From assembly GCF_019396345.1 (NCBI RefSeq), contig NZ_JAHKRM010000006.1:372001-436000 (forward strand): a stretch of 64,000 nucleotides of DNA, written 5' to 3'. The translations under genes were made by a program, and so were the position numbers. Below are positions 12,409 to 38,540 of the stretch, piece after piece. Numbering within the stretch: position 1 is the first letter of the stretch; each line of letters starts with the position of its first letter. The notes under the pieces were generated by a model. That model ran no database searches, was not told where the DNA came from, and saw only the letters and a program-made list of their open reading frames with translations. The stretch is from Nonomuraea guangzhouensis. GTDB lineage: Bacteria; Actinomycetota; Actinomycetes; Streptosporangiales; Streptosporangiaceae.

Positions 12409-12426
12409 ACAGAGAACTCGGCCGTC

Positions 12427-22803: not shown

Positions 22804-22919
22804 GATCTGCACTCCGCGTGCGGGGACCGCTGGAGGAAGCGCCAGAAGTCTTCTACGTCCATAAGGCTGCATGCTGTCAGCTTCGACCGATAATGCCACA
22901 ACACAGAGGCATCGACCGC

Positions 22920-23082
22920 GTGCCAGATCCGTGCCAGAACGAGCGGCGATCAGCGGTGAATCACGGAGACTCAGGGTCACTCGACCAGTCTCGACCTGCA
23001 CCTCCGTTTTGCAGCTCAGCAGGGCAAGATCCCTGCAATTCCCAAGCTGACAGCGCGGGTTCGATTCCCGTCACCCGCTCCA
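22920..23082 (+). repeat. att-like junction 3 (hybrid arm, perfect core)
   Basis: GTGCC at 22920 and 22931 (11 bp apart); the core runs 23039-23082, starting 119 bases after the first GTGCC. The core equals the tRNA-Gly 3' half including CCA. The left part of the arm (GAGCGGCGATCAGCGG) resembles the long-arm class, while the right part (GGCAAGATCCCTGCAATTCC) equals the short-arm class, so this junction is a recombinant of the two. The rest of 22804-23154 has no gene. Confidence 0.85.
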
Positions 23083-24004: not shown

Positions 24005-24139
24005 GTGCCATTAGTGTGCCATTAAGGGTGGTAACGAGGGGTCAACCATGGTCCCTCACGACCGGCCTCAGACCCAGGTCAACGTCCCTACGAGGCAAGA
24101 TCTCTGCAATTCCCAAGCCGATTCCCGTCACCCGCTCCA
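24005..24139 (+). repeat. att-like junction 4 (short-arm type, 14-bp deletion in core)
   Basis: GTGCC at 24005 and 24016 (11 bp apart); the core starts at 24110, 105 bases on. It reads TTCCCAAGCC joined directly to GATTCCCGTCACCCGCTCCA, so the variable loop and 5' T stem are deleted. Sequence homology to junction 5 extends a further ~87 bp upstream (from 23918). The gap 23865-24582 otherwise holds only this site, a 42-bp repeat and two hairpins. Confidence 0.85.
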
Positions 24140-24175
24140 CAAGCAAGGCCTTCTCCAATAGGCGCTTCGCGCTCA
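24134..24175. repeat. 42-bp direct repeat, copy A
   Basis: It begins with the last bases of the tRNA-like core (GCTCCACAAGCAAGGCC) and continues through TTCTCCAATAGGCGCTTCGC to GCTCA. An identical 42-bp copy lies at 37117-37158 in the same orientation. It may be the right-hand flank of an att site that was carried along with an element. Confidence 0.9.
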
Positions 24176-24280
24176 AGAGCTCAGACAGTGTTCGGTGCGG
24201 GCGCGGCTCCCACACCCCGCCAACTGCGTCGCCTTCGCCGTGGGGGGCGCTTCGCGCCGATCAAGCTCAGACTGTGTCTA

Positions 24281-24328
24281 TTGGGGCTCCCGCCCCAAAC
24301 CCCAAGTCGAGGGGCTGCCGCCCCTCGA
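24281..24328. other. Two adjacent perfect GC hairpins
   Basis: TTGGGGC-TCCC-GCCCCAA (24281-24298) has a 7-bp stem, and TCGAGGGGC-TGCC-GCCCCTCGA (24307-24328) has a 9-bp stem; both have 4-base loops. They lie in a gene-free stretch. Upstream, GGGGGGCGCTTCGCGCC adds a weaker third. They could be REP-like elements or factor-independent terminators without a U tract. Confidence 0.7.
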
Positions 24329-24582
24329 ACTCCCCGACCGCTTGGCCATCTGGGGTGGCTACCTCGTTGCCCCGAGCCGAATCCGGGTGGCCTGTCGTCG
24401 AGTACTGTCCACCACCTGAACACGATCGCGCCCCGCAACCGATCACAAGAAATGAACCAGAACCCAGTGGGGAGCTCCACCTTCACCCCTGACCCTTGGC
24501 CCGCTTCCCTGCCCGGTGGGACGACGACGGGACGATCAGGCAGGGGTTACGTGAGTGACATGGCGGGAGTTACTGTCGCCTC

Positions 24583-24951
24583 ATGGAGTCTCGATCACCG
24601 TTGATCACGCATATCTCATGGGGGAGGATGGTGGTCGACGGCTTGGGTGAGGGCAAGGACTTCAAGCTTTATCCCGGTGGCGGAAGGCCCTGGGACTGGA
24701 GCGAGACCGGCACGAGGCACAAGCCCGGTATCCAACCCTCGGACGTTCAGGAGCTCCTCGACAGAGGCAGTGAAGTGATCGTTCTTTCCCGAGGTATGCA
24801 CCTGGTCTTGGAGACCTGCCCTGAGACCCTGGATCTCTTGAAGGCCCAGGGTATCGAGGTGTATGTCGAGGAGACCACCGTGGCTGTCCACCGTTACAAC
24901 AGGCTGGCTGAGTCCGTTCCTGTTGGAGGCCTGTTCCACTCCACCTGTTGA
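24583..24951 (+). CDS. Mth938-like domain protein
   Basis: A 122-residue protein with the pattern of the Mth938/NDUFAF3 fold: ISWGRMVVDGLGEGKDFKLY, a PGG...WDW segment, then VIVLSRGMHLVLETCPETLD, AQGIEVYVEETTVAVHRYNR and the C-terminal HSTC that matches the family's conserved H-x-T-C end. Function is unknown across the family; the human homologue assists complex I assembly. The stop overlaps the next start as TGATG. Confidence 0.78.
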   Translation: MESRSPLITHISWGRMVVDGLGEGKDFKLYPGGGRPWDWSETGTRHKPGIQPSDVQELLDRGSEVIVLSRGMHLVLETCPETLDLLKAQGIEVYVEETTVAVHRYNRLAESVPVGGLFHSTC

Positions 24952-25262
24952 TGGCGTGCGGGCATTCGTCGGTGAGTGATCCATGGGACGCCATTGATGA
25001 TCAGATCCTCGAAGCGCGCATCATCCAGGCCCTGATGGTGATTCGAGATCACTCCGGCAGCACGCTCCACGAAGCCATCGACAGGTTCAGGGAGCGCTAC
25101 GACTATCTCCGCGAGACTCGTTCAGACGTCTTCACCACGCCCACGGGAAGCATGGGCGCGGCTTCTACTCCTGAGTGGTTCTACGGGCGACAAGTGGCCC
25201 CACCTACGCGTGGACGGTGGCCCCATCCTGTGATCGGAGAAGTACGTTCCGCTGAGTTTTGA
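24951..25262 (+). CDS. Hypothetical protein coupled to the Mth938-like gene
   Basis: 103 residues. The ATG at 24951 shares its A with the TGA of the preceding gene (TGATG), a sign of translational coupling; a GTG at 24972 is a possible alternative start. The core DPWDAIDDQILEARIIQALM and STLHEAIDRFRERYDYLRET recalls small helical domains related to the ribosomal L7/L12 C-terminus, a weak likeness only. The last ~25 residues run into a repeat sequence (25192-25208), so the original C-terminus may have been replaced. Confidence 0.55.
   Translation: MACGHSSVSDPWDAIDDQILEARIIQALMVIRDHSGSTLHEAIDRFRERYDYLRETRSDVFTTPTGSMGAASTPEWFYGRQVAPPTRGRWPHPVIGEVRSAEF
25192..25208 (+). repeat. 17-bp inverted repeat, left copy
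   Basis: AAGTGGCCCCACCTACG here is present as its exact reverse complement at 26184-26200. The two copies face each other across ~975 bp that hold the DinB-like gene. The spacing resembles terminal repeats of a small insertion or non-autonomous element, although no transposase is present. Confidence 0.75.
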
Positions 25263-25326
25263 CGCTTGATGTGCTCCGGGGCCTTCTACCTGCATGTCCG
25301 AAGCTCGATCGCCGATTACCGAAAAG

Positions 25327-25890
25327 TCATATTCGGCGCGGTACGGCTCCGTCCTGCCAGAGGTAGAGGTCGCGCAGCAGAGAAATCTCGGCGCCGTGAT
25401 GGATCAGCTCCTTGTTGACGTGCTGGACGATGACCTCCATGGGAAGCCGCTCGGGACCCACCGCGGGCGGATTCTCCAGGTCGGCGTCCGAGAGTTCGCG
25501 GACCCCCGCGTTCCATCTCCCGTACATCTCATCGAGCTGTTTCAGCGCCTCGTCAGCGGTCCCCGCGTAGGCGAATGTCTGGGAGTCGATGTCCTGGCCG
25601 CCGAAGTGCCATCCGACCCGATAGCCCAGGCACGAGACGATGATGTGCGCCAGCCGCCAGGCAATCGTGGTCACCGGCGCCGGCACCGGGTCAGGGGACG
25701 CGGAGTCCATCGTCCACTCCCCTGAACCTGCCGACATCGGTGCGGCCGACGTGCCACGTGGGCGGATGCTCCAGCAGTCGCGCACCGGCTCCCAGAAGTA
25801 CTCCTCATCGGCAAGACCGTCCAGCCGCGGCCGCAGGTTCTTGCGCCAGTACCAGTCCAACTGCTCCGCGAGCCGCTCGCTTCTTGTCAT
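25327..25890 (-). CDS. DinB-family protein
   Basis: A 187-residue four-helix protein. The N-terminal helix RSERLAEQLDWYWRKNLRPR is followed by LADEEYFWEPVRDCWSIRPR, a frequent DinB opening, then TTIAWRLAHIIVSCLGYRVG with a metal-ligand His, and VIVQHVNKELIHHGAEISLL with the further histidines. DinB/YfiT proteins are metal-dependent thiol transferases or damage-inducible proteins; in actinobacteria many use mycothiol. It lies between 17-bp inverted repeats. Confidence 0.85.
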   Translation of the reverse strand: MTRSERLAEQLDWYWRKNLRPRLDGLADEEYFWEPVRDCWSIRPRGTSAAPMSAGSGEWTMDSASPDPVPAPVTTIAWRLAHIIVSCLGYRVGWHFGGQDIDSQTFAYAGTADEALKQLDEMYGRWNAGVRELSDADLENPPAVGPERLPMEVIVQHVNKELIHHGAEISLLRDLYLWQDGAVPRRI

Positions 25891-26183
25891 TTCCGCACAC
25901 TACCGGCCACGGAGATCTAGCTGCGAGCCTCGCGGACGCCGTCGCCGGCCGTGGGCCGCGAGAACGTACCGCACCGGGAGATGATGCTGGGGGATGATGC
26001 GCCTTCGGGCCGCGCCGCCGCGAGTACCCCGAGCGAGCGCCATGCCAGAGCCTCCGACCTGCATGTTCGAAGATGGCGAAGACAGATGATCCCGAGACCA
26101 GCGACCCTGGAACACGATAGGTGAGGCCAAATCTCGTCCTTGATCAAGGCAGTCAAGATTGCTAACTGGGGCCGACGCTCGCC

Positions 26184-26200
26184 CGTAGGTGGGGCCACTT
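26184..26200 (-). repeat. 17-bp inverted repeat, right copy
   Basis: CGTAGGTGGGGCCACTT is the exact reverse complement of 25192-25208. The surrounding 25891-26555 contains no supportable gene; besides this copy it holds a solitary integrase-arm-like segment and a 30-bp palindrome. Confidence 0.75.
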
Positions 26201-26312
26201 CTCACCCTGAAACCACCTGAGGTCGACGCCCGTTGCGGTCCCCCGTCTGTCCGCGGCGTTCATCGAAGACCGAACGGCATTCCTGACCTGCATTGAGCCG
26301 TGTCTTCCACTC

Positions 26313-26370
26313 GTGCCCGTTCGCAGAGCGATCAGCGGGGACTCGCGGGGACGCGCGGCTCCTCGACTGG
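26313..26370 (+). repeat. Solitary arm segment without tRNA core
   Basis: GTGCCCGTTCGCAGAGCGAT followed by CAGCGGGGACTCGCGG matches the left part of the long-arm att class (compare 13343 and 28424). Where the rest of the arm and the core should follow, there is instead a 30-bp palindrome. It looks like a broken att junction. Confidence 0.7.
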
Positions 26371-26400
26371 CAGGGGTCACGTCCGTGGACGTGACCCCTG
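26371..26400. other. 30-bp near-perfect palindrome
   Basis: CAGGGGTCACGTCC and GGACGTGACCCCTG are exact reverse complements separated by GT, giving a 14-bp stem with a 2-base centre. It starts right where the solitary arm segment loses homology. It may be a protein-binding site, a cruciform, or a recombination scar. No T tract follows, so a simple terminator is less likely. Confidence 0.8.
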
Positions 26401-26555
26401 TGACAACAACGGCCACGAACGAAGGCAGATCAACTCAGCCTTCGGAACCGACGTTCTACGCAACGGGAGCCGTACGACCCTGTGAATGATCGTGCTCATA
26501 AGAAGCGGTCACCATGCGTTGATCTTCCTCCTGAAGCCTAACCTGTGTCCTGCGT

Positions 26556-27206
26556 CTAAACGGAGAACGGGTACGCATCGTTGACTACCAGTTCCGTCAC
26601 CTTGAGCAGGCGGCGGTGGTAGTCATAGGCGTCGTGGAAGGAGGAGGGGTAGCCCAGGTGATGCAGATGCCATCGGAGTTTGCGCAGGCACCTGAGGAGA
26701 GTGGCTTTGTGGCCTGAGCCGGTCGTGCCGTTGTTGCGTAGGTAGGTCGATACGCAGTCGGCGAGAGTGGCGTTCAGTTCGACGAGGTCGTCCCTCACCG
26801 AGGTCGGTACGTCAGGGAATGGGACGGGCACATGCCGGCCCCACAGGATCCCGATCTCTCGAAACATCACCCGATGGCCTTCCGGCCCGGGCCATCTCCA
26901 TCCATGCAGGTATCGCACTTCGGACGCCAACGGACTACGGCGATGCCTTGACTTTTCGAGGCGGCGCCGGTCGGCGAAGGCGTCGATCTCCGCCAGCCAA
27001 GCATTCCGGCTGAGTTCCAGCATGTCCAGCGCTCGGATCAGAGCCAACTCATCGCGTCGAAGGTTTCCTGCCGTGGCCAGGTATGAGCAGGTCGCATTGA
27101 AGCCGATCGGGTGGTAGCGGCTGACTGCGCACCTCAGCGCGCGGAAGCGTCCTCCGTAAGGAAGATCACGATCGCGAACGCGTCTGGCGTATGTCCCGAA
27201 TCCCAC
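26556..27206 (-). CDS. Hypothetical protein of unknown family
   Basis: A 216-residue basic, Arg/His/Trp-rich protein starting at GTG (VGFGTYARRVRDRDLPYGGR). Segments such as YHPIGFNATCSYLATAG and LHHLGYPSSFHDAYDYHRRL look like a compact conserved fold, not a random frame. I cannot name a domain; there is no signal peptide, membrane span or known catalytic motif. It is the last gene before att junction 5. Confidence 0.6.
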   Translation of the reverse strand: MGFGTYARRVRDRDLPYGGRFRALRCAVSRYHPIGFNATCSYLATAGNLRRDELALIRALDMLELSRNAWLAEIDAFADRRRLEKSRHRRSPLASEVRYLHGWRWPGPEGHRVMFREIGILWGRHVPVPFPDVPTSVRDDLVELNATLADCVSTYLRNNGTTGSGHKATLLRCLRKLRWHLHHLGYPSSFHDAYDYHRRLLKVTELVVNDAYPFSV

Positions 27207-27332
27207 GGCACCATCATGTCTTCCCCGAGGCCTGGCACGCTTACCCTTCGGGCAGGTCGACGGCAGACGGGATGATCAGCTGGGCAGGATGCGCGCGTCG
27301 CACGAGAAACACCAGGTCGCGGGCTGATCGCC

Positions 27333-27480
27333 GGGCCATTAGCGGGCCATTGACAGGGGTGACGAGGGATCGATCACGGTCACTCAGGACCGGCTTTCTG
27401 CCCAGCTCAGCGCCTCATCAGGCCGTGATTGATGCAGTTCCCAAGCTGACAGCGCGGGTTCGATTCCCGTCACCCGCTCT
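27333..27480 (+). repeat. att-like junction 5 (short-arm type)
   Basis: GGGCC at 27333 and 27344 takes the place of the 11-bp-spaced GTGCC pair; the core 27438-27480 starts exactly 105 bases on, as in junctions 1 and 4. The core matches the tRNA-Gly 3' half except for the final base before CA (CTCT for CTCC). Homology to junction 4 extends upstream to 27247. The remainder of 27207-27672 has no gene. Confidence 0.85.
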
Positions 27481-27672
27481 AGGAGAGACCGGCTCGCCGC
27501 CCCCTTCGGAGGGTCGGCTTCGGAGGGTTCTTGTGCTGGTCGGGAGACGCTCCCCAAGCCTCTCGCCTTATGAGGTTCTCAGGGCGCGGTGTGCCCATTC
27601 ATCACCATCGGCAACGGTAAGCCCTCGGCATCTAGACAGCCGAGGCTGAAAGATCGGCGCTAGCATGCGGCG

Positions 27673-28236
27673 ATGGACTGGGGCGCCTTCGAGAAGGCAT
27701 GGCATGACAGCGGATGCCGCATCCTGAGTGACCTCGCAGCGGCGTGTCCAGGCGAGCGACTGTACGGCGCGGCCTTCCATCTCTTCTATATGGACGGCGT
27801 CAAGATCCTCCCGCCCGCCCTAGCCGCCAACATCGAGGCAGCGGTGCACGAGGACTATGAGTACTCGACACGGTTCACCCCGCCGGAGTGGCGGTGGGAC
27901 GTCCTGGACGCGACGAGCGATGCGATGTCGCCGTGGTATCTCAGTCTCACTGAGGAGTATCTGGCACCCGCTGCCACCGAGACCGAACGGGATGCGGCGA
28001 TGAACGCGCTCGAGGCGGCGCACGACACCGCGATGGCCAACGTCTGCAAAGCGATCACCACGACAGCGCGCCGGGGCGACATCCACGGGTCGCTTCCGCC
28101 TGGGTTCGTCGTCGTCATCCTCGAAGGGCAACGCGGGGATGAGGAGGCCGGTCTGATCCGGAAGAGCGTCGACCCGCAGCTGCTGCCGACAGTCCCTGAG
28201 CTGGCCGAGTACCTGCGGCAACTCGAGGAGACTTGA
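27673..28236 (+). CDS. DUF4303 domain protein
   Basis: A 187-residue acidic protein: FEKAWHDSGCRILSDLAAAC, GERLYGAAFHLFYMDGVKIL, and YSTRFTPPEWRWDVLDATSD are typical of DUF4303, a family found among immunity proteins of polymorphic toxin systems and as orphans. It is the only gene between junctions 5 and 6. No toxin partner is nearby. Confidence 0.75.
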   Translation: MDWGAFEKAWHDSGCRILSDLAAACPGERLYGAAFHLFYMDGVKILPPALAANIEAAVHEDYEYSTRFTPPEWRWDVLDATSDAMSPWYLSLTEEYLAPAATETERDAAMNALEAAHDTAMANVCKAITTTARRGDIHGSLPPGFVVVILEGQRGDEEAGLIRKSVDPQLLPTVPELAEYLRQLEET

Positions 28237-28423
28237 GCCCCCCCAGCCAGCTCAGCGTCCCTCAGTTCAGTCGCGATTACCCAGCTCTCCAAGACAGGTC
28301 TCTTGCCGATCCTGTAAAACAGAGCGCCCGCAAAAGAGCAGCCCTTGTACGTGAAGGACCTCTAGCGCGAGCTGATTTGAACGGCGTCAGAGACGCGTGG
28401 GGGACCTACCGATCAGAAGGTGC

Positions 28424-28576
28424 GTGCCCGTTCGGACGGCGATCAGCAGGGAGTCACGGGGACTCAGCGGCACTCAACCCATGTCTGCCCAGGTCAGCGC
28501 TTCTCCAGCTCAGTCCGCATGATCTTGAAAGAGTCCCAAGCTGACAGCGCGGGTTCGATTCCCGTCACCCGCTCCA
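28424..28576 (+). repeat. att-like junction 6 (long-arm type, perfect core)
   Basis: One clear GTGCC at 28424 is followed by CGTTCGGACGGCGATCAGC, the long-arm signature; the first GTGCC of the pair is degenerate (GGTGCG just upstream). The core 28534-28576 starts 110 bases after the second GTGCC position and equals the tRNA-Gly 3' half. The short gap 28237-28423 has no gene. Confidence 0.85.
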
Positions 28577-28610
28577 AGCACGAAAAGCACTGTCCGGCAT
28601 GCCGGATCGC

Positions 28611-29237
28611 CTACTGCTCGAACCAGGCCACCAAGCGGACAGCATCGTCTCCGTGAATGTGCGCGAGCGTACGCATGACTGTCCATACCCCGTGCCAGAG
28701 GCTGTCGGGCGGGACGGCGAGGCGGCGCGTGGCACGCTCAACACGGAAGACAGTGTCTCTGTCCTTCCATTCGGTGCCTTCATCCCACAGCACGGCAACC
28801 TGATAAGGGTCGACCGTCAAGGTATCCACACCACTTACCCGAGCAAATCTGCGGCTCCATACCGAGCGGTAAACGAGCTCTAGGCTCTGATCGGGAAGCT
28901 GCCGGTACTGGGCCACGTTGGTCGGGTGAAGCGCGGGTTCATCCCAGTCGATCGCGGTGACCTCATCCCAGTTCAACCACGTGACACCGAAGGCAGCTTC
29001 TCCCCATTCCGCCAAACCCGCTTTGGCGATCTCCGACGCATCCTGGGGGAGCCCGCGATCGGCCGCTATCGGTCGCCAGTGGCCTGAGCGGCGAATCCCG
29101 AAGAGGCACTCGAAGGCTTCGTAGTCTCTGCCCACCAACATCTTCAGCGAGATAGCAGCAACCCAAGCGGTCTCGCCGACATCGAGTCCGGGAGTCCATG
29201 TACGGCACTCGATGAATCCGTGGATGTCGGTTCCCAT
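28611..29237 (-). CDS. Hypothetical protein (MGTDIHGF-type)
   Basis: A 208-residue Trp-rich soluble protein that begins MGTDIHGFIECRTWTPGLDV and contains YEAFECLFGIRRSGHWRPIA. Proteins opening MGTDIHG recur in bacteria and phages, but I know no function. The Trp-rich middle may bind a carbohydrate or nucleotide, which is speculation. It is the sole gene between junctions 6 and 7. The ATG at 29237 is chosen because homologues begin there. Confidence 0.65.
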   Translation of the reverse strand: MGTDIHGFIECRTWTPGLDVGETAWVAAISLKMLVGRDYEAFECLFGIRRSGHWRPIAADRGLPQDASEIAKAGLAEWGEAAFGVTWLNWDEVTAIDWDEPALHPTNVAQYRQLPDQSLELVYRSVWSRRFARVSGVDTLTVDPYQVAVLWDEGTEWKDRDTVFRVERATRRLAVPPDSLWHGVWTVMRTLAHIHGDDAVRLVAWFEQ

Positions 29238-29355
29238 GCCGAGATCTTCTTGTCCGCGCAGAGGCGCTGTCCAACCCTTTGTGATCACGAGGCGGTAGGT
29301 GGATGAGGTAGATGCTCGAGCAGAGCGAGCGGAGTGCGCGCGGGCCGGCCAGGCC

Positions 29356-29491
29356 GTGCCCGCTGCGTGCCCGTTCGGACGGCGATCAGCGGGCAGTCGC
29401 GGGGACTCACGGTCACTCGACCGGCATCGTCCCAGGTCCGCGTTTCCCTGGTCAGACGCTGTGATCATGAAAGACTTTCCAAGCTGACAGC
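29356..29491 (+). repeat. att-like junction 7 (long-arm type, truncated core)
   Basis: GTGCC at 29356 and 29367 (11 bp apart), then CGTTCGGACGGCGATCAGCG. The core starts at 29476, 120 bases on, but only TTTCCAAGCTGACAGC remains; the T arm and acceptor part are gone. The rest of 29238-29705 shows no gene. Confidence 0.8.
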
Positions 29492-29705
29492 TTGCCTGGC
29501 CGATCACTATTGCCAGGCTCAGCAGACCATCCGGTTGGGCGAAATCGAATGCTCGCGTGAGGGCAAGGAACTCGGCACTGCCCTTCGATGTACGACGGCC
29601 GATCTTCAGAAGTCAGTCGACGGCCGGAGTTCGCGCCCAGAGAATGGGAAGACATAGACGCCACGAGCCTGCGGAGCTTGTCAGCTCAAGTCCTTCTGCA
29701 CAGGG

Positions 29706-30671
29706 TCATGCCGTCGATTGGCTGGGCGTGTAGACCAGGTCGACCCATTCCCGCTTGGCTTTCGCCGTAAAGCTCGCCAGGACACGGGTGATCTTGCCGT
29801 TCAGGTCAATCACTACTACCCGGGAGCCATCGTTGTCACTAGCCTCGACGGACAGGTGCTGATCGTCCCACCATCCGATCGCCGGCCCGCCCTCGTTGAC
29901 GCGCTTAACGAGCTTGCCCGTTTTGAAGTCCCACAGGCAGAAGTGGTTCTCGGTATACACGCACAGCGTGAGGATTCGCCTGCCCGAGGGCGAGAACGAA
30001 TCCGTGCCGTGCATGATGCCGATCTTGCGTAGCGTGCGGAGCGTGCGCCCGTCCTGCCGGTACACACGGACGCCTGCGTACAGGTCCGAGATGCCGGCGA
30101 CCAGATATTTGCCGTCCGGAGTCCACTGGAAAGTCGCATGTTCGTGGACGCTGCGGACGGTTACGGCCTTCGAGGTGCCGGCGACGGGGTCAACGATGAC
30201 GAAGCCGACCGTTTCGATCTCGTCTTTTTGGATGCTGAGGACGAGTCTGCGACCATCACGTGCCCAAATGGGGCTGGTGGCGTTCAGCGGTTTCCGTACC
30301 GTACGAATGCGCTTGGACCTGCCCTCGCTATCGAAGATCACAACGGAGTTGTATGTCCCGGGAGAGGAGTAGGGCACGCCCGCGACGTTTCCACCTTTCG
30401 GCGCCGGTTGCAGCTCGCCATACCCTTTCTTCGCCACGAAGGTATTCCCATCGGATGAGCGGAGATAGGCGGCACGGCGTGATGACGACACCTCCTTGCT
30501 GAAGGCCGTCATCCTCCACGGATCACCGTCCTGCTCATGTAATACGACGCCAGCGTTGGGCACGTCGATGTCGACGCCGATGCGTTGCTGAGCGGATGCG
30601 GGAGTGGTGGCGAGCATGGACAGAAGCAGGCTCACGGATAGCACACCACGTAACAGGAGAGCGTTGATCAC
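29706..30671 (-). CDS. Secreted TolB/WD40-like beta-propeller protein
   Basis: A 321-residue protein with a signal peptide (INALLLRGVLSVSLLLSMLA, cleavage likely after SAQ). The body has propeller-blade repeats: TSPIWARDGRRLVLSIQKDE, TFQWTPDGKYLVAGISDLYA, TDSFSPSGRRILTLCVYTEN and IGWWDDQHLSVEASDNDGSR, each with the SPDG-type turn of TolB repeats. Likely extracytoplasmic; partner unknown. Confidence 0.8.
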   Translation of the reverse strand: MINALLLRGVLSVSLLLSMLATTPASAQQRIGVDIDVPNAGVVLHEQDGDPWRMTAFSKEVSSSRRAAYLRSSDGNTFVAKKGYGELQPAPKGGNVAGVPYSSPGTYNSVVIFDSEGRSKRIRTVRKPLNATSPIWARDGRRLVLSIQKDEIETVGFVIVDPVAGTSKAVTVRSVHEHATFQWTPDGKYLVAGISDLYAGVRVYRQDGRTLRTLRKIGIMHGTDSFSPSGRRILTLCVYTENHFCLWDFKTGKLVKRVNEGGPAIGWWDDQHLSVEASDNDGSRVVVIDLNGKITRVLASFTAKAKREWVDLVYTPSQSTA

Positions 30672-30784
30672 GATGGCAGCATAGAGAAAGGTCGTGGTCT
30701 GCGAAGGCGTCCACGTTAGGATCGCGCTGTCTTGACAACGTGATCTATCGCGCTCTTATAGAGATGGGGGAAGTTCACCACAGC

Positions 30785-31282
30785 ATGACCAGCCACATGG
30801 AACGCCCGCTGCTCTTCCTCGATGTCGACGGGCCGCTTCTCCCATTCGGTGAGGCCCCGCAACGCGAACCGTTGGCTACCACACCCGACTCACACTTGGC
30901 GCGGCTCACCTCCGAAGTGGGGCGTCGGCTGGCGGCGCTGCCCTGCGAACTCGTCTGGGCCACCACCTGGGAAGACGAGGCGAACGCCGAGATAGCACCC
31001 CGAATCGGGCTGCCGTGCCTGCCAGTCGTGAACTGGCCGGACCCATCCGACGGGGATGAACGTGAGAACCAATGGTTCGGGCTTCACTGGAAGACCCGGA
31101 CCCTGGTGAACTGGGCGGCCGGACGCGCGTTCGCCTGGGTCGACGACGAGATCACCGACGCCGATCGGGACTGGGTCTCCACGCACCATGGCGGCCGGGC
31201 ACTCCTCCACCACGTGGAGTCATTCCGGGGACTCGCCGACGAAGATTTCGCAGCCCTCGATCAATGGCTTCGAGCTCTGTGA
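30785..31282 (+). CDS. HAD-domain protein (HAD_SAK type)
   Basis: About 165 residues. RPLLFLDVDGPLLPFGEAP at the start is the first HAD motif (DxDG), LVWATTWEDEANAEIAP is motif II and FAWVDDEITDADRDWV supplies the acidic motif near the C-terminus. This layout is that of the HAD domain of the 'Swiss Army Knife' RNA-repair family, which is often encoded as a stand-alone phosphatase. In-frame ATGs also occur upstream (30764), so the start is uncertain. Confidence 0.8.
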   Translation: MTSHMERPLLFLDVDGPLLPFGEAPQREPLATTPDSHLARLTSEVGRRLAALPCELVWATTWEDEANAEIAPRIGLPCLPVVNWPDPSDGDERENQWFGLHWKTRTLVNWAAGRAFAWVDDEITDADRDWVSTHHGGRALLHHVESFRGLADEDFAALDQWLRAL

Positions 31283-31310
31283 ATCACCCACAATCCATAG
31301 GATTTAACAA

Positions 31311-31466
31311 TTACTCCCACAGCCCTCGTTCGGCTACCAACTGCTCCAGCTCCTCATCGGACAGACCCTCGACAGGGGCCTGCATGTGGTCCCGAGTAGC
31401 GGCTTGGGCCACGATCAGATTGGGCTCCCGGAAGTAGGCCTCACCTCGGGCGGACTTGGCGTGAAC
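31311..31466 (-). pseudogene. Short C-terminal fragment downstream of the WD40 gene
   Basis: A frame with good amino-acid character, GEAYFREPNLIVAQAATRDH followed by LSDEELEQLVAERGLWE, lies just after the WD40 stop. It has no plausible start of its own. It may be the tail of a gene whose front was lost, or a chance frame. Reported because the composition is protein-like. Confidence 0.3.
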
Positions 31467-31468
31467 AC

Positions 31469-32554
31469 CTAGCGGGACTCGTTGCTTTTGATCTCCGGAA
31501 GGTCCCAGAGACGGACGGTGTGGTCTCGGCCGGCGGTGATGACGGCGGGGTGGGCATTCAGTTCGGTGAACCGGACGGCGAACACCTCGCTGGGGGCGTC
31601 GCGTTCCTCCCTCCGGTGCGCGGTGTTCGGCTCTGCCAGCAGGCGCCGATCCGCGATGTCCCACAGGCAGAGCGTGCCGTCCTCGCCGCCGGTCGCCGCG
31701 ACCACGCGACCGTCCACGACACCGGCATCGAGGCACTCGACATTGCCTCCCGGCACGGTGATCGGCTCGGCCCAGACCGGGTCGTCGGCGTCGCTCACAT
31801 CGCACACCGCAATGACCCGTTCTCCGGCCGCGACCAGGAACGCCTGGTCTTGACTGGTGGCCAGCGCGAAATGGTTAAAGCCGTCATCGATGTCGTCGGG
31901 CACGTCGAGTTCGACGATGGGTTCGTCTTCGTCGAAGTCCCACACGGTGATGCCGCCCTGCACGCCGTTGGCCGCGATGACCGACCGTCCCCACAGTGTT
32001 CCGGCTGCGATGCCCCCTGCGCATTCCAGTTCGTCGGTCAGCCAGAAGAGACCTTCTTCGCCGTCATCGTTCCCGGGCTCGTGCGCGTCGAGGTCGTCGG
32101 TCTCGGGCTTGCCGTTCTTCGCCGGGCTCTGCACCTCCATGCCCGGGGCGGCAAAGCCGAGAACGAAGAGGGTCTGTCCGCTGAGTGTCACCGCGCGAGC
32201 CGAGCTCACGCTTGTGGGTTCGGCACCGTCTAGTACCGCGCCGGTTTCCAGGTCCCATTGCGCGAAACCCTGGTGGTCACCGCCGCCGCCGACCACGATC
32301 CGGCCGTTGACCACCGCGGCTCCGAGCGCGGTGAGATCGGTGTAATCAATGTCCGAGTCTCCTTCATCAAGCCACGGATTATCGAGTTGGTACTCGGTCC
32401 ACTCATCGGTCGTCGGATCCCACGTGCAGGCGCGTCGGCTGACATCGTGCGTGCACACCACCAAAGGGCGTTCAGCCATGACGACGAGGTCGAAATCCAG
32501 GACGGCGCTTTCGGAGGGCACCTGGCTGGTCAGGACGGGTCGGAGTGCAGGCAT
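31469..32554 (-). CDS. WD40-repeat protein
   Basis: A 361-residue acidic protein with several WD-type blades: QGFAQWDLETGAVLDG, QGGITVWDFDEDEPIVELDV, GGEDGTLCLWDIADRRLLAE and ITAGRDHTVRLWDLPE at the C-terminus. No signal peptide, so probably cytoplasmic. WD40 propellers are scaffolds; in actinobacterial accessory regions they often pair with kinases or proteases, none of which is seen here. It is the last gene before junction 8. Confidence 0.85.
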   Translation of the reverse strand: MPALRPVLTSQVPSESAVLDFDLVVMAERPLVVCTHDVSRRACTWDPTTDEWTEYQLDNPWLDEGDSDIDYTDLTALGAAVVNGRIVVGGGGDHQGFAQWDLETGAVLDGAEPTSVSSARAVTLSGQTLFVLGFAAPGMEVQSPAKNGKPETDDLDAHEPGNDDGEEGLFWLTDELECAGGIAAGTLWGRSVIAANGVQGGITVWDFDEDEPIVELDVPDDIDDGFNHFALATSQDQAFLVAAGERVIAVCDVSDADDPVWAEPITVPGGNVECLDAGVVDGRVVAATGGEDGTLCLWDIADRRLLAEPNTAHRREERDAPSEVFAVRFTELNAHPAVITAGRDHTVRLWDLPEIKSNESR

Positions 32555-32691
32555 GGACGGATCTTAGGCGCGGAGCCCGACAATGATCAGCAAAATACCC
32601 GGTTGTGACAGGGGATCCTTCGCAGGATGAACGACTCTGCGCTGTCGTTGTCGAGCCTCAGCGAGGAGAGCACTTCACCAGCTTGATCGTC

Positions 32692-32829
32692 GTGCCATCA
32701 AAGGCGGTGGCGAGGGGTCAACCACGGTCACTCATGACCGTCCTCAGCCGCAGCTCAACGCCTCTACGAGCCAAGATCCCTGCAATTCCCAAGCTGACAG
32801 CACGGGTTCGATTCCCGTCACCCGCTCCA
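32692..32829 (+). repeat. att-like junction 8 (short-arm type)
   Basis: One GTGCC at 32692 survives; the core 32786-32829 starts 94 bases on, exactly the distance from the second GTGCC to the core in junctions 1 and 4. The arm keeps GGGGTCAACCACGGTCACTC. The core differs from the tRNA-Gly 3' half by one base (GCACGGG for GCGCGGG) and includes CCA. The remainder of 32555-32924 has no gene. Confidence 0.85.
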
Positions 32830-32924
32830 CTTATGAAGGCCCAGCTCAGGATGTGAATCCAGATTGTGGATCTTCGTCAGCTTCTGAAATAACCCTCTGG
32901 GCCAAGAGGCCTTCGGGCGCTTGC

Positions 32925-33143
32925 TCATTCGGACCGGCGCCGCCTGGTGCGATAGTGCTCGGCACGCTCCGCCGCCATGCGTTCCCGTCGCTTCTGAGTC
33001 AGGATCTCTTGGGGACTCGGCACCCGCCGCTGCTCATGTCTGATCGCCAGGCGGATCGCCCAATAAAGAAAGAAGAACACCAGCACCGCCGGAACGACCC
33101 ATGTCACCAGCAAGTACAGAATCTCGGCTAACCCGCTCGCCAT
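32925..33143 (-). CDS. Small single-span membrane protein
   Basis: A 72-residue protein: MASGLAEILYLLVTWVVPAV opens a strong membrane segment (~residues 6-32), followed by a very basic cytoplasmic tail ending YRTRRRRSE. The ATG at 33143 has GGAGG five bases upstream, which decides the start; the open frame further upstream belongs to transposase debris. Function unknown. Confidence 0.7.
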   Translation of the reverse strand: MASGLAEILYLLVTWVVPAVLVFFFLYWAIRLAIRHEQRRVPSPQEILTQKRRERMAAERAEHYRTRRRRSE

Positions 33144-33149
33144 CTGATC

Positions 33150-33374
33150 CTCCGTATAGGGGAAACCAGCATGCCTGATCTTGCAGACTGCGTCCATCGA
33201 TGACTTCGCGAGTTGGTCCGCTCGCTGCTGCGCCGGCCGTAGCCAGCCCGGCACAGGGGGTCGGCCTCGGCCGACATCAACGCTTCGGCCATGGTCTTGA
33301 CCATGGATCGCAACATCTCCGGGTCATCTGCCCCCCAGCCACTCACCGGGCGTCACACTGTTGTCTGCGGCCAT
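33150..33374 (-). pseudogene. IS256-family transposase, N-terminal remnant
   Basis: Reading from an ATG at 33374 gives MAADNSVTPGEWL, then after a shift ADDPEMLRSMVKTMAEALMS and AEADPLCRAGYGRRSSERTN. This is the N-terminus of IS256/Mutator transposases, which usually reads EADALCGAxYGERSxERxNxRNGYR. Beyond this point the frame is scrambled and the catalytic DDE region is absent. It is a 225-bp scar beside junction 8. Confidence 0.75.
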
Positions 33375-33653
33375 CGCCTTGTTCTCCTTCGATCTTGAAC
33401 TGCGCACTCGAAGGATCACGCGATGGCCGTCCCCATTTCACGGTGCCACACCCGCCACCAGGCCAAACTCGTACACCACTCCCCGTGGACGCAGCCGAAC
33501 TAACTTGCACTCGCCGTCCGGGTACCTAGGACATCCGATCGCAGCGCAGGCGCAGCGGGGGCATCGCCATGCGGCCGCTGGGCCGCATCAGACAACGCGC
33601 CGACTCGTCGGCGGGCCGCTGCGAGCGCGTCCCCGCTTGTATACGATCACATT

Positions 33654-33896
33654 ATGTTCGCCCCCCGAAGAACGCGGATTTTTCTGGCGACACTCGCGGC
33701 CTCGACCGGTGGCGCTTTCCTCGGCGTCCTTGGCGAAAAGGTCTTTATCCAGGGCATGCCTCTTTCGGATGCTTCCAGCGCTGCGCTGAACTCGTGGGTG
33801 ATATTCCCGGGGTTCTTTCTCGGGTTGATAGGCGCCCGCCGCAGCCTGCAGAGGGCAGCGAAGGAAACACATAAGCAGGAAGCAGCTCCGGGATGA
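33654..33896 (+). CDS. Small membrane protein, hypothetical
   Basis: 80 residues with two hydrophobic segments (FLATLAASTGGAFLGVLG and WVIFPGFFLGLIGA) and charged ends. No clear ribosome site precedes the ATG, and AT-rich TATACGATCACATT directly upstream could act as a promoter for a leaderless or near-leaderless message. Function unknown; reality moderately supported. Confidence 0.45.
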   Translation: MFAPRRTRIFLATLAASTGGAFLGVLGEKVFIQGMPLSDASSAALNSWVIFPGFFLGLIGARRSLQRAAKETHKQEAAPG

Positions 33897-33981
33897 TCGC
33901 TAAGGCGAGTGGGCTGTGCCGGTCTGTCACTGGCTGAGGTAGGGCGGGAGGGGTACGCGCGCAGTTCGTGGGGTGATCGTC

Positions 33982-34119
33982 GTGCCAGAACGGACGGCAA
34001 GTCAAGGTCGATAAGGGTCACGCACGGTCGCGCGGCCATACCTGACCAGGGCCCCCGTTTTCCCAGCTCAGAGTGGGAAGATCAGTAAAAGGCAGGTTCG
34101 ATTCCCGTCACCCGCTCCA
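33982..34119 (+). repeat. att-like junction 9 (arm diverged, core 5' part lost)
   Basis: GTGCC at 33982 begins a diverged arm that keeps CGGACGGCAAGTC and GGGTCACGCACGGTC. The core is present only from the T loop on: GGTTCGATTCCCGTCACCCG then CTCCA (34095-34119). The anticodon-stem half is replaced by unrelated bases. The following ~80 bases to 34199 hold nothing else. Confidence 0.75.
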
Positions 34120-34199
34120 ATGACGAAAGCCCAAACAGACCGGTGGATTCGGCATCTGGGCTTCGATCTTGCAGGGAGGTCTTCGTGGGATCGCTTCGA

Positions 34200-35054
34200 T
34201 CAACGACGGAACAGGACGTCGAGTTCGCTGAAGCCCAGTGAGCCGTCCAGCGCCGTAAGACCTCCCGTGCCGAGCAGTTCCGCAGCGGCTCTCCGAGTCG
34301 CGGTGTAGGCGGCCTGGGCCAGCCCGGTGCCCAGGCTGATTCTGCGTACCCCGGCCTGCGCGAGCTCGGTGACGCTCGGTCCACCGGCGATGGCCATCGC
34401 GTTGACCGGCAGCGGCGACTCGGCACAGAGAGTGTTCAGCACGTCCAGATCGAGCAGGCCGGGAACGAAGATGCCGTCGGCTCCCGCCTCGGCGTAGGCC
34501 GCCGTGCGCGCCAGCACCTCGTCCAGTCGGCCATCCGGTGCACCGATCCCGAACAAGAAGACGTCGGTGCGGGCGTTGATGAACAGTTCCGGCAGGCCCG
34601 CCCCGGCTGCGGCGTCCCTGGCGGCGCGCAGCCTGGCGCGCTGCTCGGCGACGTCGAACAGAGGACCGCCGACGGCCGTGGAGTCCTCCAGATTGACGCC
34701 CACCGCGCCGGCATCGACCACCGCCCGCACGGTCGCGGCGACATCCGCCGGTGCCGGTCCGTACCCTCCCTCCACGTCGACCGTCACCGGCAAGTCGACG
34801 GAGTTCACGATGCGCCTGGCGGCTTCCACCATCTCGCCGCGGCTGAGCCGCTGCCCGTCCCCGCGGCCCAGCGACCACGAGACGCCACCGCTGGTCGTGG
34901 CAATCGCCGCGGCGCCGGCCGCGGCGATGACGGTCGCACTGGCGGCGTCCCACGCGTTGGGCAGCACCAGCACGGACTCGGTGCTCAGGGTACGGAACAG
35001 CCGGGCCTTCCGCTGAGTCGCGGCATCGATGGAGGGGGAGAGGTCAACAGACAC
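34200..35054 (-). CDS. Isocitrate lyase/PEP mutase family protein
   Basis: A 284-residue TIM-barrel protein. VLVLPNAWDAASATVIAAAG, TTSGGVSWSLGRGDGQRLSR, TVDVEGGYGPAPADVAATVR and VGVNLEDSTA hold the PEPM/ICL signature; FINARTDVFLFG supplies the later active-site segment. Family members cleave or form C-C or P-C bonds of oxo acids, such as methylisocitrate lyase and phosphonomutases; the exact substrate is unclear. The GTG at 35054 is taken as start. A divergent ArsR-like regulator follows 121 bp away and may control it. Confidence 0.85.
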   Translation of the reverse strand: MSVDLSPSIDAATQRKARLFRTLSTESVLVLPNAWDAASATVIAAAGAAAIATTSGGVSWSLGRGDGQRLSRGEMVEAARRIVNSVDLPVTVDVEGGYGPAPADVAATVRAVVDAGAVGVNLEDSTAVGGPLFDVAEQRARLRAARDAAAGAGLPELFINARTDVFLFGIGAPDGRLDEVLARTAAYAEAGADGIFVPGLLDLDVLNTLCAESPLPVNAMAIAGGPSVTELAQAGVRRISLGTGLAQAAYTATRRAAAELLGTGGLTALDGSLGFSELDVLFRR

Positions 35055-35175
35055 GTGAATGACCGCCTTTCGGGTTGTTCTGCTTCTCGGTACCTGCTCC
35101 CGGGATGCTGCTGGGCAGAAGGCCGAGGGTCCACTGATTAAGCTCGGACCGAATCGTGGAAGTAGTGGAGGTAGC

Positions 35176-36165
35176 GTGAAGGCGCGGCTGACCTTTTCGG
35201 TGAACGATCTGGCCGAGACCCGGTTCGCCGTCTCGCCCATGTGGGAAGTCGTCACCAGTTTCAGAGCGCTTTCCGCCGCTGTGGTGCCGCACCCGCACCG
35301 CTGGTGGGCCGACCAGGTACGCCCTCGGCTCGCAGCCGCGGGCCTCGATCGCGGCTGGCTGGCCGACATGATCCCGCCCATCGGCCACCTCCCCGACTTT
35401 CTCAACCCGGCACTGGCGACCTCATCTCCCGGCCTTTCCGACGAGTTGGCCGCCATCGAGGCCACCGACCCCGAGCAGGTGCGCCGGGACCTCGATCAAC
35501 TGGCCGCCGAGCGCGAAGGCCGATTGTCTCCCCGGCTGCGGAGTCTTCACCGAACCCCTCGGACCTGCCTGCCTCGGATCGTCGCGGAGATCGAGGCCTA
35601 CTGGGGGCTGGCGATAGCGCCCTACTGGGCCAGGATCCGCTCGGTGCTGGAGGCGGACGTCTTCCACCGGGGTCGCCAGGTGGCCGAGCAAGGTACGGCG
35701 CAGGCGCTGGACGAGCTGCACCACACGGTGCGTTGGGCCAACGGCAGCCTCCACCTGGTACAGCGGCACTGCGCCATCACCAGGATCGAGACCGGAGCCG
35801 GGCTGCTCCTGGTACCGTCGGTCTTCGCCTGGCCGCGGGTGCTGACCCGGTCCGTCGTGTCCGAACCACCTCAGCTGGCCTACCCGGCACGCGGAATCGG
35901 CACCTTGTGGGAGCGCCGTACACATGCGCGCATGGAAGCCCTCGCCGCCGTGATCGGCCGAACCCGGGCGTTGATCCTGACCGAGCTGGACGCGCCCGCC
36001 TCAACCACCGAACTCGCCCAACGCTCGGGCCTTTCCGCAGCGGGGGTGTCCCAGCACCTCACCGCACTGCGGGCCGCCGGTCTGACCAGCACCCACCGAG
36101 CGGGCCGTTCGGTGCTCTACGCCCGTACCGGCCTCGCCGATGCCCTGCTCACCGCACAGACGTGA
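35176..36165 (+). CDS. ArsR-like winged-helix regulator with N-terminal DUF5937-type domain
   Basis: 329 residues. The long N-terminal region (FSVNDLAETRFAVSPMWEVV, LPRIVAEIEAYWGLAIAPYW) is typical of the DUF5937 regulators, and the last ~80 residues form an ArsR winged helix (ASTTELAQRSGLSAAGVSQH, then LTSTHRAGRSVLYARTGLAD). The GTG at 35176 follows GTGGAGGTAGC. Likely a repressor for itself and the divergent lyase. Confidence 0.85.
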   Translation: MKARLTFSVNDLAETRFAVSPMWEVVTSFRALSAAVVPHPHRWWADQVRPRLAAAGLDRGWLADMIPPIGHLPDFLNPALATSSPGLSDELAAIEATDPEQVRRDLDQLAAEREGRLSPRLRSLHRTPRTCLPRIVAEIEAYWGLAIAPYWARIRSVLEADVFHRGRQVAEQGTAQALDELHHTVRWANGSLHLVQRHCAITRIETGAGLLLVPSVFAWPRVLTRSVVSEPPQLAYPARGIGTLWERRTHARMEALAAVIGRTRALILTELDAPASTTELAQRSGLSAAGVSQHLTALRAAGLTSTHRAGRSVLYARTGLADALLTAQT

Positions 36166-36274
36166 AAGCCTGCTCGGCGACGGTGCCGCGGGCGATCGGC
36201 GATCCACGTCCATGCGGCCGACGTGCCATGTCAGGCCGGTGGTGCCAGGCGTTTTCACGCCAGTCTCGGGTACG

Positions 36275-36496
36275 TCATCCGCCCGCGGCGTCCTCGACTT
36301 CCCAGCGCAGCAGGTCGCCCGGCTGGCACTGGAGCACCTCGCAGAGCGCATTGAGCGTCGTGAAGCGCACCGCCTTGGCGCGGCCGTTCTTGAGTACGGC
36401 CAGGTTGGCGGGCGTGATCCCTATGCGTTCCGCGAGGTCTCCCACGGACATCTTCCGCTTGGCCAGCATCACGTCGATGTCGACGACGATCGGCAT
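36275..36496 (-). CDS. Small XRE regulator (YozG-like)
   Basis: A 73-residue protein that is just a Cro/C1 helix-turn-helix: MPIVVDIDVMLAKRKMSVGD, then LAERIGITPANLAVLKNGRA and LCEVLQCQPGDLLRWE. It overlaps the DUF2975 gene as ATGA and is therefore coupled to it, an association known from many Gram-positive genomes. Confidence 0.9.
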   Translation of the reverse strand: MPIVVDIDVMLAKRKMSVGDLAERIGITPANLAVLKNGRAKAVRFTTLNALCEVLQCQPGDLLRWEVEDAAGG

Positions 36497-36987
36497 CAGA
36501 TCATCTCGTCCAGCTCGGCCTGCATCTGCGTCGCTTCGACGTCGCGCGCGACGGCCTGGGCGAGCAGCATCCGCAGCACGAGCACGATGAGCGCGACCCC
36601 CAGGATGCCCAGGCCGATCCCGGCCATGATGACGGTGACGCCCGGGTCGTCCCGCTGGCCCGGCGCATTGATGGCCGTGACCGCGAACCACAGGAGGGCT
36701 GCCGCCACGATCGCGCCGATCACGGCGTCCACGTACCGGAAGGCGGCGTGGGAGAACACGGTTCCGCGTCGCACCATCGTCACCAGCCGCCATACGCTGA
36801 CCAGGGCGACCTGGACCGACAGCATGCCCAGGATCGTGATCAGGCGCAGCGGGGTCAGCGGGAGCGACCCGTCCTCTGGATCGTTCCCGCTGACCAACAC
36901 CCACACCATCGATGCCTGTACGAACACGGTGCCGGCGAACACCACCACGAGCACGGCGCGCAACGCACGCACTGTCAGCTTTCCCAT
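36496..36987 (-). CDS. DUF2975 membrane protein
   Basis: A 163-residue protein with four hydrophobic segments (around residues 8-32, 44-66, 84-107 and 118-142) and a short acidic C-terminal tail. The gene is coupled by ATGA overlap to the small XRE regulator. DUF2975/XRE pairs are thought to form membrane-signal modules in which the membrane protein controls the regulator; unproven. Confidence 0.82.
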   Translation of the reverse strand: MGKLTVRALRAVLVVVFAGTVFVQASMVWVLVSGNDPEDGSLPLTPLRLITILGMLSVQVALVSVWRLVTMVRRGTVFSHAAFRYVDAVIGAIVAAALLWFAVTAINAPGQRDDPGVTVIMAGIGLGILGVALIVLVLRMLLAQAVARDVEATQMQAELDEMI

Positions 36988-37116
36988 GGCCTACCCTTCC
37001 ATCGAGTTGCGATGGAAATCTATCGAATGTCGATAAGTGAAGCAAGGGCTGGGGTGGAGGCCGGTCGGCGCGGGACGCCGTCGCCCCCTCCCATGGCGTG
37101 GCGTTCGCGCGAACGG

Positions 37117-37158
37117 GCTCCACAAGCAAGGCCTTCTCCAATAGGCGCTTCGCGCTCA
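37117..37158. repeat. 42-bp direct repeat, copy B
   Basis: Identical to 24134-24175 over all 42 bases and in the same orientation. It begins with GCTCCAC, the last bases of the tRNA-like core, but the T arm is missing here, so it is a remnant of a junction whose core was lost. Confidence 0.9.
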
Positions 37159-37233
37159 GGACGGGTGGCCGTTCCGCTCGCGTCACCGAAGCTCCCTTCC
37201 TCGTGGGGCCTCACCGGCCTAAAATGATGATCA

Positions 37234-37247: not shown

Positions 37248-37273
37248 CGTGAAATGAAAGTGATGTCGCTGCC

Positions 37274-38089
37274 GTGAAGGACACTGAACTCGTCGGAGTG
37301 CAGAAGACCCTCAGCCCCGTTCTCAGGGCCAAAGCGCTGGACAACCGACTGCCGGACCCGATCCTCGGCGACGAATACGCCGAACAGGCGATGCGCCGCC
37401 TCGACCCCGACTACGACAAACGCAGATTCGGCACCAGCCAGTTAGGCCTCGTCGCCGTGGTGCGTACCAAGGCCCACGATGACTGGGCCCGGAGCTTCCT
37501 CGCCGACCACGCCGACGCGGTGGTGTTGCACCTGGGCTGCGGCCTCGACGCCCGGGTGTACCGGATCGACCCGCCCGCCACCGTCGACTGGTACGACCTG
37601 GACTACCCGTCCGTCATCGAACTGCGGCGACATTTCCTTCCGCCGCGCGAGCACTACACCCTGATCGACTCCAGCGTCACCGACCTGACCTGGCTGGAAC
37701 GCATCCCGCGTGGCCGGCCGGTGCTGATGATCGCCGAGGGACTGGTGCCCTACCTGACCGAGACCGCAGTCCGGCAGCTGCTGACCAGCGTCGTCGACGC
37801 TTTCCCCACCGGCCAAATACAGTTCGACACGGTGCCGGTCTGGGCGTGGCGAACCTCCAAATGGGACCCCACGCTGCGCAAATACGACGCCCAGTTCCAC
37901 TGCGGCTTCAACAACCCGGCCGCGCTGGCCGATTGGCACCCGCGGCTCGAATACGTCGACGAGGCGCCGATGAACGACTCACCGGTGCTGATGGCCAAGG
38001 CGCCCGCGAACGTGCGCCGCATGTACCGCCTCTTGAACCTGCTGCCGGGCATGAAACGGTCCACCCGCATCGTGCGGTTCCGGTTCTAA
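37274..38089 (+). CDS. Class I SAM-dependent methyltransferase, LCM/TcmP family
   Basis: A 271-residue protein. The SAM site is VVLHLGCGLDARVYRIDPPA (~residues 83-102), with YDLDYPSVIELRR for the ribose-binding acid, and VLMIAEGLVPYLTE in the middle, as in leucine-carboxyl methyltransferase-like and TcmP-like O-methyltransferases. The start is GTG. A perfect palindrome lies upstream. It is the last intact gene of the att-bounded region. Confidence 0.88.
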   Translation: MKDTELVGVQKTLSPVLRAKALDNRLPDPILGDEYAEQAMRRLDPDYDKRRFGTSQLGLVAVVRTKAHDDWARSFLADHADAVVLHLGCGLDARVYRIDPPATVDWYDLDYPSVIELRRHFLPPREHYTLIDSSVTDLTWLERIPRGRPVLMIAEGLVPYLTETAVRQLLTSVVDAFPTGQIQFDTVPVWAWRTSKWDPTLRKYDAQFHCGFNNPAALADWHPRLEYVDEAPMNDSPVLMAKAPANVRRMYRLLNLLPGMKRSTRIVRFRF

Positions 38090-38470: not shown

Positions 38471-38540
38471 CCGCTCGGCTCTCAAAGCGGCGCTCCCGGC
38501 GATTGATGGCTCTATCAGCGACTATGCGAACCTCTATGCC

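Follow-up and report, generated by a model that had tools for sequence, protein, structure and literature searches.

Two identical 42-bp repeats in a tRNA-Gly(CCC) cassette region of Nonomuraea guangzhouensis probably belong to different structures

Integron arrays are made of small gene cassettes in tandem, with a recombination site in common. The array considered here resembles them in its tandem small cassettes and common site, and differs in its tRNA-based cores, in the arms on both sides of these and in an integrase of phage/AICE type. Actinomycete integrative and conjugative elements (AICEs) are described as being of the pSAM2 type (PMC3218068), and cis-mobilizable elements (CIMEs) as undergoing tandem accretion with ICEs (PMC5704250); the 42-kb XSAM1, located beside pSAM2, is presented as an actinomycete CIME (PMC4891641). 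One RNA gene is also targeted by many islands in Dehalococcoides, whose ssrA-specific islands include vcr islands of about 12 kb and carry an integration module in 16 of 31 cases, according to the cited part of that work (PMC3146451). In Streptomyces ambofaciens, where breaks had been induced, the repair scars contained inserts of 42 or 83 bp originating nearby, or of 30 bp originating elsewhere (PMC5869714).

The window analyzed was a stretch of 64,000 nucleotides of Nonomuraea guangzhouensis (contig NZ_JAHKRM010000006.1, positions 372,001 to 436,000). It contains an intact tRNA-Gly(CCC) gene followed by an array in which ten partial copies of the tRNA 3' end delimit cassettes, nine of the ten intervals measuring 0.9–4.4 kb; counts from the core-finding script carry errors, such as a spurious call at 18337 (three mismatches, inside an ORF) and the missed deleted core at 24110 (Table 1). 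Most intervals have core copies and shared arms at both ends, as in CIMEs, with some cores being degenerate. Among 40 ORFs of the window no integrase or transfer family was found apart from an integrase relic, and the AICE gene set (intact integrase, RepSA-type replication and FtsK/TraB-type transfer) was absent from the window ORFs tested. PADLOC gave one weak match for 10 ORFs of the island. The array is like the CIMEs and XSAM1 in its att-flanked elements without integration genes, placed in tandem at a tRNA (PMC5704250, PMC4891641), and unlike them, as far as the cited text describes XSAM1, in the size of the cassettes (mostly 0.9–4.4 kb, often one or two genes) and in having ten core copies in a single array (PMC4891641).

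Table 1. Positions of the features discussed, numbered from the first nucleotide of the window.
Feature	Position	Strand	Source or remark
tRNA-Gly(CCC), intact target gene	11610..11683	+	ARAGORN
First cassette, core to core; DUF433 and DUF5615 genes	11640..12574	+	Pfam
tRNA-Gly 3' copy (core), 43/44	12532..12574	+	
tRNA-Gly 3' copy, degenerate, 33/44	13453..13485	+	
Tyrosine integrase gene relic	13765..14007	+	PF00589, E 3.5e-8
SUKH (SMI1/KNR4) cassette, ending at its core; no left core observed	22185..23082		
tRNA-Gly 3' copy, 44/44	23039..23082	+	
Attachment core (tRNA-Gly 3' half), 30 nt, 14-bp internal deletion	24110..24139	+	
tRNA core end and putative displaced tRNA-Gly 3' flank; member of GC-rich hairpin-like dispersed repeat	24119..24383	+	
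Left 42-bp copy	24134..24175	+	Last 6 nt of tRNA-Gly 3' copy and first 36 nt of flank
tRNA-Gly 3' copy, 43/44 over 44 nt	27438..27479	+	
tRNA-Gly 3' copy, 43/44	28533..28576	+	
tRNA-Gly 3' copy, 5' part only	29476..29491	+	
tRNA-Gly 3' copy, 43/44	32786..32829	+	
tRNA-Gly 3' copy, 3' part only (core listed at 34076)	34096..34119	+	
DUF2975 membrane protein gene	36496..36987	-	Pfam PF11188
58-bp joint (GG, 42 bp, 14 nt) between regions non-adjacent in relatives	37115..37172		
Right 42-bp copy	37117..37158	+	
MarR-type regulator gene, first 14 nt, cut at joint	37173..37186	-	
LCM (leucine carboxyl methyltransferase-like) gene	37274..38089	+	Pfam PF04072
Right arm and degenerate core (26/44)	38364..38476	+	

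Comparable arrays recur at the same tRNA across Streptosporangiaceae, with AICE integrases adjoining in roughly half of the relatives; several cassettes in relatives have their left end in common with the AICE. One relative (Nonomuraea thailandensis, L040) carries the AICE genes in the order tRNA-Gly, int, RepSA and an FtsK-like gene, the likeness of our window to AICEs being limited to its integrase relic (PMC3218068). The first cassette was 92.6% identical over 938 bp, core to core, to a reversed locus of another strain (L041:15820-16757), and the SUKH cassette reached 87.6% over 902 bp and 86.8% over 906 bp in two relatives (L039 and L052, respectively). Cassette turnover is complete between strains with 95–97% identity in the chromosomal flank; the ssrA islands of Dehalococcoides, likewise targeting one RNA gene, are reported as a major source of strain differences (PMC3146451). 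We tentatively propose, at less than even confidence, that the tRNA-Gly(CCC) region could act in Streptosporangiaceae as an integron-like platform for gene capture. An AICE-type integrase by the tRNA, of the same or another strain, would insert and remove cassettes of one or two genes (toxin-antitoxin, PIN, SUKH and similar) at tRNA-derived sites, and the 42 bp at 37117 may be one of the fragments captured when breaks occur in this traffic. No account recognizable as this array appeared in titles and abstract openings dealing with tRNA-Gly arrays, AICE satellites, Streptomyces CIMEs or integron-like tRNA arrays. A tRNA site that gathers very small cassettes without integrases matters more than the 42 bp themselves, and the array may offer a tractable model for the capture and exchange of tiny satellite elements in large actinomycete genomes.

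The identical 42-bp direct repeats of the original prediction are real. The copies show 0/42 differences, and exact identity extends no further than the block, the 40-bp flanks matching at 14/40 positions on either side; the 42-mer occurs twice in the 13.7-Mb genome, and a 35-bp part of it was found at these two sites alone when up to three mismatches were allowed. With this tolerance, a 41-bp pattern gave no match in 100 dinucleotide shuffles of the window nor in a search of 53 other genomes of Nonomuraea. A relaxed pattern matched three sites in the own genome and two sites in one of 40 others. All other exact repeats of 42–46 bp in the window correspond to tRNA-Gly 3' copies, except one that comprises an arm together with a core. 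These genome-wide and 53-genome counts rule out the 42-mer as a common exact repeat; the suspicion that it might be common away from tRNA-Gly applies to its diverged relatives, since the 267-bp flank block was matched in 31 of 54 genomes of the genus. Both copies begin with GCTCCA, the last bases of the tRNA, as had been noted, whereas the tRNA-like core itself precedes only the left one.

The best interpretation of the left copy is the original 3' flank of tRNA-Gly(CCC), displaced 12.4 kb by cassettes, because the same sequence adjoins the 3' end of this tRNA in Nonomuraea sp. NEAU-A123. In this closest relative found, which shares 95–97% identity over about 11 kb on the other side of the tRNA, a homologue of 24119–24383 lies directly behind the gene (88% over 269 bp), and a relative of the block occupies the same place in a further genome (G015). 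Another member of the family (87% over 248 bp) sits on contig C47 of the own genome, away from any tRNA. The idea of a recent duplication finds support only in the 42 bp, given that the two copies are identical to each other and differ at 4/42 positions from the NEAU-A123 orthologue.

The right copy lies in a different context. It is a bare 42 bp, with neither core nor arm upstream of 37117, and makes up most of a 58-bp joint between the DUF2975 and LCM gene regions, which are non-adjacent in relatives. On the DUF2975 side, homology to G022 and to G020 stops at 37114, and that to NEAU-A123 at 37070; on the LCM side it starts at 37173/37174 in seven of the nine genomes compared, where it continues into a MarR-type gene (intact in G022, L194:3161-3643). 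In G022, 632 kb separate the two regions, and in NEAU-A123 the DUF2975 region is on another contig, within a tRNA-Ile island, with no LCM gene near the copy found. For the rest of the LCM/DUF2975 stretch, the genome contains no further near-identical copy. A match to G033 was not reproduced on closer comparison. No source was found for the right 14 nt and left GG, leaving 16 of the 58 bp without known origin, and no microhomology was evident when the joints were inspected by eye. Some caution applies to both edges: G022 and G020 diverge from each other just after 37114, where the palindrome GTTCGCGCGAAC ends, so the left homology edge may be a natural variable boundary instead of a break, and two of the nine genomes have a different gene upstream of LCM (homology beginning at 37265–37269), which indicates that the LCM neighborhood is variable anyway.

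We consider it somewhat probable that the two copies are parts of different things, a displaced tRNA flank on the left and the filler of a repair joint on the right. Integrase-dependent cassettes would have been inserted serially between the tRNA and its flank, and a 14-bp deletion would later have damaged the core preceding the left copy. Break repair, presumably by end joining, may then have linked the DUF2975-gene region to the LCM-gene region in an illegitimate joint, the MarR gene beside LCM being lost save for 14 nt; as filler, the joint would have retained a 42-bp piece of the tRNA-Gly flank close by, acquired either through copying or through capture of a fragment. The two contexts, the orthology of the left copy, the truncated MarR start and the 58-bp joint are observed, and the end joining, the direction of copying and the sequence of events are inferred from them. 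The joint resembles the scars of S. ambofaciens in that non-adjacent DNA is joined around a short insert, here 42 of 58 bp identical to 24134–24175 of the same genome; it differs from the cited scars in being deduced by comparison and not induced, and in its 16 sourceless base pairs (PMC5869714). The genome encodes Ku, which together with LigD makes up the end-joining machinery. The 42 bp at 37117 may serve as a naturally occurring case of a rearrangement joint with a short insert of local origin.

The main rival to a repair scar is an eroded cassette boundary, in which a former left end (core plus flank) at 37117 would have been reduced to 42 bp by two flanking deletions. We regard this as unlikely, yet it has points in its favor: the final 6 nt of the tRNA open the right block, cores elsewhere in the array show all stages of decay, and downstream of the block a degenerate arm and core are present. 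However, upstream of the block there is no remnant of a right arm or core, two independent deletions would have had to spare 42 identical bases, and in relatives the sequence on the LCM side belongs to the chromosome, beside the MarR gene, the bases inspected there containing no att sequence. The start of the right copy 6 nt inside the tRNA end is a feature that an eroded boundary would equally produce, and it counts against a repair scar.

The other explanations seem far less plausible. Independent membership of both copies in the dispersed repeat of the genus, with identity by chance or gene conversion, fits a common family often placed behind stop codons and tRNAs; it is highly improbable in view of the GCTCCA tRNA bases common to both copies, of 42 identical bp against 5/36 differences in the next-best member of the own genome, and of the abrupt end of the right copy, while better-matching members extend for 100–250 bp. 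A false join at the repeat during assembly deserves a little less credence still: the assembly consists of 127 contigs, with contamination estimated at 7%, but homology to NEAU-A123 and contig C47 runs without interruption through both sides of the left copy, so partners were not swapped between the copies. Least probable of all is the proposal of a 13-kb composite element, delimited by the repeats and moved as one. It agrees with their direct orientation and perfect identity, and with mobile-type cargo of low G+C (about 0.62–0.69) between them. We reject it because neither end has an intact site, the left core being damaged and the right copy coreless. Moreover, five core copies lie inside the block (27438, 28533, 29476, 32786, and 34076), no intact integrase or transposase occurs among the 40 ORFs tested (8.6–41.2 kb), the integrase relic being outside the block, and the two edges have unrelated histories. 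The comparison with a relative did not favor it either, as matches >100 bp showed the tRNA-Gly island of NEAU-A123 to be without the intervening cargo, except for arm sequences. The 42 bp themselves carry little weight, other than as a caution against taking each perfect direct repeat near att sites for the ends of an element.

A strong hairpin formed by the 42 bp was rejected, since folding of 24134–24180 (z -1.68), 37117–37163 (z -1.17), and 24134–24260 (z -0.72) was unremarkable as compared to shuffles. Folding energy gives no basis for the label "terminator-like", which is applied to the family because its sites follow tRNAs and stop codons.

The two identical 42-bp direct repeats lying 13 kb apart were rightly noted in the original prediction: both blocks were maximal, shuffles did not support chance as their source, and no further close copies were found elsewhere in the same genome (13.67 Mb, 127 contigs; window at G000:C84:372001-436000) or across 54 genomes of the genus. 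Its suggestion that they bound a 13-kb composite was not upheld. The left copy is best seen as a displaced tRNA flank and the right one, most likely, as a repair scar.

The core preceding the left copy lacked 14 bp. In Nonomuraea sp. NEAU-A123, the closest relative found, the homologue of 24119-24383 lay directly behind tRNA-Gly (88% over 269 bp); this block is therefore a native flank, now 12.4 kb off its tRNA. The phosphate-transporter gene adjoining the tRNA was 96% identical to its NEAU-A123 counterpart, other top matches being mostly from Nonomuraea. Contig C47 of the same genome carried the block as well (87% over 248 bp), and ARAGORN found no tRNA near it. A search with the 267-bp block matched 31 of the 54 genomes (E 1e-3 or better). 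Among the matches listed, some followed tRNA-Gly or a partial copy of it, and several followed the ends of genes that, from a reading of the sequence, are acyl-CoA-dehydrogenase-like. Folding energies of three stretches were unremarkable.

Left of the right copy lay a DUF2975 gene whose upstream region matched NEAU-A123 to 37070 and two other genomes to 37114. On the right, homology to the locus of the LCM gene started at 37173/37174 in seven of nine genomes compared, where the LCM-side sequence continued into a divergent gene, which in genome G022 belongs to the MarR family, and at 37265-37269 in the other two (L181 and L182). As homology ended at 37114 and started at 37173/37174, 58 bp (GG, the 42 bp and 14 nt) stand between regions that are distant in G022 (632 kb apart); the MarR gene was reduced to 14 nt. 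The arrangement resembles a break-repair joint containing filler DNA, and the genome encodes Ku. Repair scars of S. ambofaciens are comparable in their short, partly local inserts (42, 83 and 30 bp, two of the three from close by, according to PMC5869714). The case is weakened in two ways: G022 and genome G020 diverge from one another immediately past 37114, so that the left edge may represent a natural boundary, and no source is known for 16 bp of the joint. An eroded cassette boundary is a fair rival. Neither core nor arm was present upstream of 37117. The 1.8-kb stretch 36268-38089 had no second near-identical copy in its own genome, where it gave partial matches (69-78% over 110-280 bp) plus the left copy. 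In NEAU-A123 the DUF2975 region belonged to an island with tRNA-Ile upstream. This island (G070:C23:574580-578700, L117) also contained a right arm of tRNA-Gly type and the remnant of a core, followed by a second tRNA-like 3' end just ahead of the DUF2975 region.

In window 11610-38476, ten partial copies of the 3' half of tRNA-Gly were arranged in tandem, together with small cassettes and common arms, and no intact integrase accompanied this array; arrays occurred at the same site in many Streptosporangiaceae, which include Nonomuraea and Herbidospora. Five of the ten cores were identical at 43-44 of 44 positions, the remaining five being degenerate, cut or deleted.

Coordinates of the repeat pair and array features in the window
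Feature	Position	Interval from preceding tRNA or core (bp)
tRNA-Gly(CCC)	11610-11683	
Core	12532 (start)	892
Core	13453 (start)	921
Integrase relic	13765-14007	
Core	23039 (start)	9586
Core	24110 (start)	1071
Left 42-bp copy	24134-24175	
Core	27438 (start)	3328
Core	28533 (start)	1095
Core	29476 (start)	943
Core	32786 (start)	3310
Core	34076 (start)	1290
Right 42-bp copy	37117-37158	
Core	38436 (start)	4360

The arms around the cores are conserved: over 64 core sites from 31 loci, a list including at least one false core, an arm motif picked after inspection occurred 16 times in the bins lying 100-120 bp ahead of the core and 13 times in those 70-90 bp behind it (expectation, 0.05 per bin). 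Cores additional to that of the tRNA were present in 21 of the 31 loci and absent from ten, within the sequence covered, which in relatives extended 3-9 kb past the tRNA and in the window and NEAU-A123 further. On the opposite side of the tRNA, NEAU-A123 matched the window at 95-97% identity over 11 kb; up to window position 45590, where a match lay, its island shared no cargo match above 100 bp with the window other than arms and 137 bp of the first cassette. Between that cassette (11640-12574) and the second interval of L041 the match ran the full core-to-core length (92.6% over 938 bp). The SUKH cassette (22185-23082) matched L039 and L052 at 87-88%. The most fitting reading of the array is therefore a tandem series of decaying CIME-type elements that lack an integrase, are small and turn over fast; the array merits study in its own right. 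The SUKH cassette was free-standing in L052; in the window it is fused into the 9.6-kb interval because its left core is missing.

Pfam families in the 40 ORFs of 8.6-41.2 kb comprised DUF433, DUF5615, PIN, SMI1/KNR4, Gp49, DUF498, DinB, HAD_SAK_2, WD40 and others, with no integrase. An integrase-like ORF ended less than 200 bp from the tRNA in 15 of 31 relatives (tblastn). At the Nonomuraea thailandensis locus (L040) this ORF was int, with RepSA and an FtsK-type gene next in line, which makes up an AICE; some 5 kb of collinear sequence was common to L040 and L036, L037, L046, L050 and L060. In two relatives (L034 and L058), an integrase of another type started right behind tRNA-Gly and lay on the same strand as the tRNA; the relic in the window resembled this type.

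Elsewhere in the genome, two more tRNA-Gly 3' copies with arms lay 925 bp apart at G000:C1:605652-606619 (L027), with no tRNA found in the surrounding 19 kb; they represent either another small array or a cassette that was transplanted. At G000:C53:6110-6176 (L019, L030), right-arm sequence (78%) adjoined what by eye resembled the 3' half of another tRNA; no tRNA was called there by ARAGORN, and a related element with another target may be represented. Within the array, at 25170-26222, a DinB-like gene was flanked by inverted repeats of 56 nt, imperfect and separated by 941 nt.
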